From positions 1 to 64,000 of the forward strand of contig PALM01000036.1 in NCBI GenBank assembly GCA_002706365.1: DNA of 64,000 nucleotides, read 5' to 3'. Origin of the DNA: Flavobacteriales bacterium (GTDB taxonomy: Bacteria; Bacteroidota; Bacteroidia; Flavobacteriales_E; Vicingaceae). The translations under genes and the position numbers were made by a program. Every line of letters starts with the position of its first letter. Position 1 is the first letter of the stretch. The notes beneath the pieces were generated by a model that saw nothing but the letters and a program-made list of their open reading frames with translations, was not told where the DNA came from and made no database searches. Of this stretch, positions 5,774 to 44,451 are shown in pieces.

Positions 5774-5813
5774 CTAGAATCTAGATTCTAGAGTCTAGAC
5801 TCTAGGTTCTCAG
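5774..5813. repeat. CTAG heptamer array, copy 2
   Basis: CTAG recurs at 5774, 5781, 5788, 5795 and 5802, exactly 7 bases apart: CTAGAAT, CTAGATT, CTAGAGT, CTAGACT, CTAGGTT, then CTCAG. Sub-blocks are perfect palindromes, for example CTAGAATCTAGATTCTAG. The array fills the whole spacer between the convergent PaaE-like and small basic protein genes. Confidence 0.75.
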
Positions 5814-26970: not shown

Positions 26971-26999
26971 TTCGAATGTGCAACACCTTTGCGACCTCT

Positions 27000-27080
27000 G
27001 TGCAAAGCGAAGCGCCTTAGCGAAGCCCCGTCCCTCGATACAATTCCGCGAAGCGGAATCACTCGGGAGCCATCGGGGCT
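27000..27080. repeat. Nested palindromic element B, copy 1
   Basis: AGCCCCG at 27024-27030 pairs with CGGGGCT at 27074-27080. Inside are TCCCTCG at 27031-27037 against CTCGGGA, and innermost ATTCCGC-GAA-GCGGAAT at 27043-27059. A related element is at 30558-30618. The 17-mer GTGCAAAGCGAAGCGCC at 27000-27016 just upstream recurs at 33708-33724. Confidence 0.75.
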
Positions 27081-27121
27081 TTTGTGGTTAAAGCAGATGT
27101 ATTTTATTAACGAAATCCAAT

Positions 27122-28920: not shown

Positions 28921-28938
28921 TTTTTGAGACAGAAGAGT

Positions 28939-28970
28939 CTAGAATCTAGACTCTAGACTCTAGGTTCTCA
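28939..28970. repeat. CTAG heptamer array, copy 3
   Basis: CTAG at 28939, 28946, 28953 and 28960, spaced exactly 7 bases: CTAGAAT, CTAGACT, CTAGACT, CTAGGTT, then CTCA. The terminal GGTTCTCA is shared with the copies at 5774 and 44042. It occupies the spacer between two convergent genes. Confidence 0.75.
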
Positions 28971-29313: not shown

Positions 29314-29341
29314 TTAGAGCTTAGATTTTAGAGTTTAGACA
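29314..29341. repeat. TTAG heptamer array, diverged copy
   Basis: TTAG at 29314, 29321, 29328 and 29335, exactly 7 bases apart: TTAGAGC, TTAGATT, TTAGAGT, TTAGACA. It keeps the heptamer phase of the CTAG arrays with the first base changed to T, in the spacer between divergent ybaB and the rhodanese gene. Confidence 0.55.
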
Positions 29342-30440: not shown

Positions 30441-30499
30441 GGAAATCGGAAATCGGAAATCGGAAATCGGAAAAGACTCTAGAACCTAGAGTCTAGACT
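30441..30499. repeat. Heptamer array, copy 5: GGAAATC and CTAG units in one phase
   Basis: Eight heptamers run without a break in phase: GGAAATC at 30441, 30448, 30455 and 30462, GGAAAAG at 30469, then ACTCTAG, AACCTAG and AGTCTAG (30476-30496). CTAG falls at 30479, 30486 and 30493. The change from one unit type to another without loss of phase is striking. The last part is inverted relative to the copies at 5774 and 28939. Confidence 0.75.
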
Positions 30500-30534
30500 A
30501 ATTTGAGATGAATTTTGAGTAGAAATCTCTCAGA

Positions 30535-30628
30535 GTTCTCTGTGCCTTCTCAGTGTAGGCCCCGACTATCCCTCGATACAATTCCGCGCAGCGGAATCAC
30601 TCGGGAGCCGTCGGGGGTCTCCGTGTCC
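30535..30628. repeat. Host repeat interrupted by nested palindrome B, copy 2
   Basis: Bases 30535-30557 are identical to 42304-42326 (23 bases, ending GCCTTCTCAGTGTA). Then comes a nested palindrome 30558-30618 (GGCCCCGA...TCGGGGGTC with inner ATTCCGC-GCA-GCGGAAT), very similar to 27024-27080. After it, CTCCGTGTCC corresponds to CTCTGTGTCC after the other copy's different palindrome. Confidence 0.8.
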
Positions 30629-42261: not shown

Positions 42262-42298
42262 AGCTTGAAGCCAGAAGCTTGAAGCTAGACTTTGAAAC
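42257..42298. repeat. AAGCTTG-type heptamer array
   Basis: Six heptamers in phase: TTTGAAG, CTTGAAG, CCAGAAG, CTTGAAG, CTAGACT, TTGAAAC, from 42257 to 42298. The first unit contains the rnz stop codon. It belongs to the NNNGAAN family and runs directly into the host repeat at 42304. Confidence 0.7.
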
Positions 42299-42303
42299 TC
42301 TGT

Positions 42304-42356
42304 GTTCTCTGTGCCTTCTCAGTGTAATCCGCCAGCTGGCGGATCTCTGTGTCCCA
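42304..42356. repeat. Host repeat interrupted by an 18-bp palindrome
   Basis: Bases 42304-42326 equal 30535-30557 (23 of 23). At the same junction ATCCGCCAGCTGGCGGAT (42327-42344, perfect palindrome) is inserted instead of the large element B. CTCTGTGTCCCAG follows and matches CTCCGTGTCCAG after the other copy. Confidence 0.8.
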
Positions 42357-43969: not shown

Positions 43970-44070
43970 AGTGCAACTAGAGTGCACTAAAGTGGGGCCA
44001 AATCAGAGATCAGAAATCTGAAATCAGAAAGCTAAAACTGTCTAGATTCTAGGCTCTAGGCTCCAGGTTC
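43970..44070. repeat. GTGCACTAAAGTG repeat followed by TCAGAAA and CTAG heptamer arrays
   Basis: AGTGCAACTAGAGTGCACTAAAGTG (43970-43994) is related to the repeat at 29388. TCAGAGA, TCAGAAA, TCTGAAA, TCAGAAA, GCTAAAA follow at 44003-44037 in 7-bp phase. Then CTAG at 44042, 44049 and 44056 and CCAG at 44063, ending GGTTCTCA. All lie between the convergent T9SS protein and msrB genes. Confidence 0.7.
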
Positions 44071-44451
44071 TCATACTTCCTTATCAAAATCCAAACTCGC
44101 AGAATTAATACAATACCTCATTCCGGTGGTATCTCCCGGTCCGTCTTCGAAGACATGTCCAAGATGCCCTCCGCAGTTGCCGCAAACCACTTCCACTCGG
44201 ATCATTCCAAGAGAAGTATCGCGGATTAACTCCACATTTCCCTTATCAATTACATCGTAAAAGCTGGGCCAGCCGGAACCGGAATCGTATTTGGTATCTG
44301 AGCTGAAGAGGGGAGTGCCACAAGCAGCACAATTGTATTTGCCTTTCTCTTTATTGTCGAGATATTCTCCAGTAAACGGACGTTCAGTTCCCTTTTCTAC
44401 AAGGATTCTGTATTGCTCCGGACTTAATTTCTGCTTGTGTTCTTCTTTCAC
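44071..44451 (-). CDS. msrB: Peptide-methionine (R)-S-oxide reductase, cytoplasmic
   Basis: A 126-residue MsrB without a signal peptide: CAACGTPLF and [14 protein letters not shown] zinc-ligand pairs, [17 protein letters not shown] and the catalytic [12 protein letters not shown]. It is the soluble counterpart of the exported lipoprotein at 37750-38232. Its start overlaps the end of the DEAD-box helicase gene by 4 bases, so they are cotranscribed on the minus strand. The C-terminus is just before a CTAG heptamer array. Confidence 0.9.

Follow-up and report, generated by a model that had tools for sequence, protein, structure and literature searches.

Swapped and nested hairpins in a Flavobacteriales genome suggest tiny palindromic elements that land in hairpins and repeat arrays

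A dispersed repeat in the genome of a Flavobacteriales bacterium carries different palindromes at one junction, has the same junction empty in other copies, and shares its palindromes with different hosts. One host hairpin likewise occurs with and without a longer palindrome, P1, which sits in either orientation and takes part in deeper nests. This swapping and nesting of hairpins suggests that tiny palindromic elements land in hairpins and repeat arrays, and we consider it probable that the spacers of dispersed heptamer arrays, together with hairpin loops, are preferred landing or exchange sites for small palindromic units.

The analysis began from a 64,000-nucleotide stretch of this genome (the window; coordinates are on its + strand), in which an earlier note had reported that bases 30535-30557 and 42304-42326 are identical and that the match resumes after an insert. 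Re-reading the sequence confirmed both points: 23 of 23 bases are the same (GTTCTCTGTGCCTTCTCAGTGTA), with 93% identity when the comparison is extended to 29 bases, and the right flanks are CTCCGTGTCC and CTCTGTGTCC. The host, which we term type 1, is a degenerate heptamer array, CTCTGTG-tt-CTCTGTG-cctt-CTCWGTG-ta-[insert]-CTCWGTG-WCC, with spacers otherwise nn. Its left part reads CTCAGAG-tt-CTCTGTG-cctt-CTCAGTG-ta at 30529-30557 and CTCTGTG-tt-CTCTGTG-cctt-CTCAGTG-ta at 42298-42326; the last heptamer and tail, at the right end of the repeat, occupy 30619-30628 in the first array and 42345-42354 in the second. At the junction lie a 61-nt nested insert (30558-30618) and an 18-nt perfect palindrome, ATCCGCCAGCTGGCGGAT (42327-42344), respectively. 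A 17-base core of the host repeat has two matches in the window at up to three mismatches, where 0.24 are expected, and an Rfam scan of the window returned no family match. The window holds other repeats as well: a short tandem repeat of AAATCGG lies immediately upstream of the first array (30443-30470), and TCTAGA-type units (AGAATCTAGATTCTAGAGTCTAGACTCTAGGTTCTCA), a dispersed intergenic repeat class, occur at 5776-5812, 28934-28970, 29316-29341, 30474-30499 and 44037-44073, with one such repeat elsewhere (L212) downstream of a rimM-like gene.

Searching the genome for the host, as the earlier note had proposed, brought up many other copies, with different inserts and with empty sites. The sequence examined comprised 843 kb of the 3.02-Mb draft genome, in blocks, plus targeted loci, so that genome counts given here are lower bounds. 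A host 22-mer gave 15 matches at up to three mismatches, and a gapped pattern (host, 8-38 nt, CTCHGTG) gave 11, against none for either control, which was the reversed sequence for the 22-mer. Among the 22-mer matches, the palindrome at the one shared junction differs in nearly every copy. In the sequence examined, 18 type-1 copies were scored as filled, under a 75-nt limit on insert length, with inserts of about 17-61 nt; a nineteenth (L155) lies beyond that limit, its nested insert of about 100 nt forming a three-level nest at the junction. About eight copies are empty, with a spacer of 2 nt, a count that takes the eight listed, drops the window match at 30526 as spurious and frame-shifted, and adds L078. 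The comparison of filled with empty sites is one between copies within a single genome, not between alleles of different strains.

Among type-1 copies, mean identity is 0.87 in the flanks and 0.50 in the inserts, compared with 0.41 for shuffled inserts. Hairpin folding exceeded that of shuffles (p <= 0.05) in 14 of the 18 inserts, the exceptions being L008, L010+, L014 and L020; the combined p is about 1e-15, calculated with mononucleotide shuffles and with the copies taken as independent. By eye, GTAG precedes 13 of the 18 inserts, where the GTA may be array sequence, and type-2 inserts (below) are without GTAG. Chance as the source of the pattern is ruled out by the reversed-pattern controls and the shuffles.

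A natural experiment comes from a tandem duplication (C20:186369 and C20:187131), in which the paralogs are 74% identical over the matched stretch and their array copies show near-identity across about 180 nt. One nevertheless holds GTCCGACGATAGGAGGTGC where the other holds CACCCCGAGCGGAGTCGAGGGG; homology picks up again at CTCTGTGTC and stops just past the last heptamer. Wholly different palindromes within a flank so well preserved argue against the idea of a conserved RNA or DNA structure at the repeat end, such as a terminator or mRNA stabiliser, formed by the hairpin, whose pairing is selected while its sequence drifts by compensatory change. Strong hairpins in most inserts, the likeness of several palindromes to intrinsic terminators of this genome and the presence of two P1 copies in terminator-like stems are what such a structure would lead one to expect, but inserts vary in length between about 17 and about 100 nt, different hosts carry identical palindromes and some copies are empty, and we regard this explanation as distinctly unlikely.

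The same paralogs lend support to a second alternative, in which scattered arrays undergo homologous recombination or gene conversion with one another, which would swap the segment between common flanks with no transposition at all. Near-identity of the flanks spans 20-30 nt in general and the longer stretch in the tandem pair, where the intergenic flank is more similar than the 74% found for the whole paralogous stretch. Recombination, however, reshuffles palindromes and cannot create their diversity, and P1 occurs in hosts with no common flank, namely terminator-like stems and other arrays. As a full account it therefore seems rather unlikely, although some palindromes could have been spread by recombination between repeat copies.

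A second host family shows that the behaviour is not peculiar to one array. Type-2 arrays, with the tail GTTAAAGCGGATG, also carry palindromes at a single junction, and a strict filter retained 14 filled copies with eight different left arms, further ones being recognized by eye. The 16-nt core of the 18-nt palindrome occurs six times without mismatch in the genome, and its contexts include type-1 arrays, type-2 arrays and others; type-2 arrays and other places share TCCGCCAGCTGGCGGA with the window (position 42328), and CCTCGACnnnGTCGAGG occurs in both type-1 and type-2 arrays. This recurrence in more than one host repeat means that the palindromes behave as units in their own right, distinct from the host.

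The two window inserts have the lengths and positions that the earlier note gave them, and the structure of the longer one can be refined. The 61-mer is a 7-bp hairpin, with arms CCCCGAC (30560-30566) and GTCGGGG (30610-30616), that holds in its loop a 38-nt palindrome, P1 (TCCCTCGATACAATTCCGC-gca-GCGGAATCACTCGGGA, 30569-30606). Folded as single-stranded DNA, the 61-mer has z = -2.8, and as a BLAST query it returned 51 matching pieces. The P1 core pattern (TCCCTCGATACAATTCCGC-nnn-GCGGAATCACTCGGGA) has 25 matches in the genome, and as a short multi-copy intergenic palindrome P1 is in this respect like a REP of the GTAG superfamily. A further window copy (27031-27068) sits in an outer stem of AAGCCCCG (27023-27030) and CGGGGCTT (27074-27081), the whole spanning 27023-27081, and is carried by a different heptamer array that begins CTTTGCG-ac-CTCTGTG (26987-27002). 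In 20 of 25 sampled copies P1 is enclosed by an outer palindrome measuring 5 bp or more; the figure falls to 31% with flanks swapped between copies and to 2.9% with shuffled flanks, the swapped-flank control being the stricter because outer stems recur among P1 copies. These stems include CCCCGAC, GCCTCGAC, GCCCGCC, TTCACGAC and AAGCCCCG, and in L153 and L159 P1 lies within 14-bp terminator-like stems.

Three outer hairpins are also found in a P1-free version in the same host context: GCCTCGAC-nnn-GTCGAGGC (with P1, L152), CCCCGAC-TCT-GTCGGGG (L129; with P1, L146) and GCCCGCCAGCTGGCGGGC (L182; with P1, L143, where it is inverted), so that P1 is found in either orientation. Nesting continues inwards. 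Several copies carry an inverted relative, P2, in P1's own loop, P2 stands alone at L207, and a third palindrome breaks the right arm of P1 in L157, L158 and L170. One might ask whether such structures were made on the spot, palindromes being rebuilt and enlarged locally when replication switches template at quasi-palindromes and hairpin loops are cleaved, for instance by SbcCD. A constant stem with a variable loop is what this would produce, and the eight copies of GCCTCGAC-nnn-GTCGAGGC show four types of loop when orientation is ignored (ATG/CAT, TCT/AGA, ACT/AGT and TTG/CAA). P1, however, has the same sequence in many places and so was copied from elsewhere rather than made in place, and we judge local rebuilding to be very unlikely as the source of the pattern.

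The earlier note had viewed the palindromes as inserted at, or swapped within, a fixed site of a dispersed repeat. Insertion or swapping is supported by the different inserts, the empty copies and the recurrence in other hosts, whereas the site proves to be not one but several, namely heptamer-array spacers and, in the case of P1, the loops of hairpins. Small palindromic units would land in, or be exchanged at, the array spacer; their loops would receive the larger P1, and the loop of P1 could in turn hold an inverted P2. With array spacers and unit loops as the targets, the 61-mer is read as a two-level nest in an array and the 18-mer as a one-level insert.

The note had also pointed to a REP-associated tyrosine transposase (RAYT), and such genes are indeed present. 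Three Y1 transposase loci (L027, L028 and L029) were found, one of them with a stop codon; two (L028 and L029) are intact RAYTs by NCBIfam (NF047646, 97.4 and 113.2 bits, cut-off 80), with HUH and Y motifs NHIH..YIHQNP and NHLH..YIHMNP that resemble subclass 2.6 of PMC6006769. No link between them and P1 or the array palindromes emerged. Each locus has its own set of nearby palindromes (CGCGCGACTGCGTCGCG, GCAGGATTTGCAATCCTGC and GCGCGGACATGTTGTCCGCGC among the three), unlike those of the arrays; P1 was absent within 1.5 kb of the three loci, and the loci and the palindrome arms had no 10-mer in common, the single shared 10-mer being an A/T-rich loop. A RAYT-palindrome link was likewise sought without success in this genome and four others, and neither P1 nor the array palindromes were found flanking a cognate RAYT in the manner of REPs. 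P1 lacks the unpaired 5' GTAG foot (GT[AG]G). Measured against the CGTC superfamily (a CGTC or TGTC tag, an 8-9 bp stem starting with AT pairs, a CCA tail), some P1 copies (L147-L150 and L153) read CGTC..CCA, most lack the AT start of the stem, and in other genomes the relatives have TGAC at their end.

Given the Y1 and RAYT findings, we propose that the likeliest route is one in which an HUH-type enzyme inserts single-strand hairpins. The units would move as single-stranded DNA hairpins; the simplest mover would be a putative HUH (Y1) nuclease that is supplied in trans and works on displaced or lagging-strand DNA. Host hairpins would expose their loops as targets. Recombination between repeats may be a helper of this route or its rival, and the choice among insertion, exchange and conversion is one that we infer. 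More tentatively, and with the odds somewhat against it, the palindromes could form a gene-less hierarchy of parasites in which each level lands in the loop of another hairpin, with arrays as the ground-level target and a putative single-strand nuclease provided in trans.

Within the sequence itself, a Bacteroidota origin rests on a Por_Secre_tail domain and on one protein whose only relative found lies on a Chitinophagaceae contig. Among 60 relatives, the filled type-1 pattern occurs only in this genome, two matches in G044 being plain arrays, and across 395 genomes of the class other matches also look like plain arrays. Heptamer arrays are themselves patchy (6 of 60 genomes). The P1 core was found in 10 of 390 Bacteroidia genomes, with none for the reversed control, and was absent from plasmids and, as an exact pattern, from IMG/VR. 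A congener, G001, has one array (L070) with GCCCCGACTTTGTCGTGGGC at the junction, and the orthologous genes in our genome have no array beside them. The array is not common to both congeners at this one tested locus and so is not simply ancient sequence; the note's alternative of ancient shared sequence fails on this ground and because the inserts differ. G001 is a 93% complete draft in which the orthologous positions of both window sites fall at contig breaks; a Y1 search of this draft gave no match, though it has a filled array. In G043, a repeated element of about 150 bp (L073, L080, L083, L086, L088 and others) is bounded by terminal inverted repeats of GTTACTATTCACCCC and contains a heptamer array opposite an inverted one; in L083 an additional palindromic insert separates the two arrays. 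Separately, plain heptamer arrays with other spacings occur in several Bacteroidia families (L139, L140, L141, L071 and L072), and a 100-170-nt repeat is common to this genome (L213-L216) and the congener (L070, 1519-1690), with a contig end in three of the four cases in our genome.

What governs the choice of sites by REP-like palindromes, and the differences among their stems, is an old question. Here a single genome presents one host site in filled, empty and multiply filled form, which opens target choice by hairpin loops to direct testing. The work also gives structure to the intergenic heptamer arrays of Bacteroidia, a widespread class that is undescribed as far as our literature searches went; searches of open-licence papers with the array sequence strings returned no relevant paper.

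REPs inside palindromes, palindromes within palindromes and insertion sequences in REPs are already known. REPs of Thermomicrobium roseum (GTAG-23), Anabaena variabilis (GTAG-15) and Halothiobacillus neapolitanus (CGTC-1) are inserted within other palindromes, and in T. roseum empty target palindromes are abundant (PMC3733652). The placing of REP-type palindromes inside palindromes is common to those systems and ours; their target, however, is one palindrome consensus per species, whereas P1 occupies many outer stems, the outer hairpins vary at one array junction and the P1 loop carries a further palindrome. Nesting is similar in the organelle DNA of Volvox carteri, where short palindromes considered selfish are inserted into one another and reach 633 nt in mitochondrial DNA (PMC2670323), but those are algal organelle palindromes of other sequence with no heptamer-array host. 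With REP, BIME and REPIN systems and their RAYTs, as described in PMC6006769 (see also PMC3116915), our palindromes share the character of short multi-copy intergenic palindromes in a genome that has RAYT genes, and differ in that no cognate RAYT and no consistent GTAG foot on P1 were found. Insertion sequences such as ISPpu9, ISPpu10, ISPsy8 and others target REPs (PMC1525189); palindromes are preferred targets there as well, while the inserted units here are gene-less 38-nt palindromes. New, to our knowledge, are the variable hairpins at one heptamer-array junction and the multi-level nest that occurs both empty and filled within one genome.
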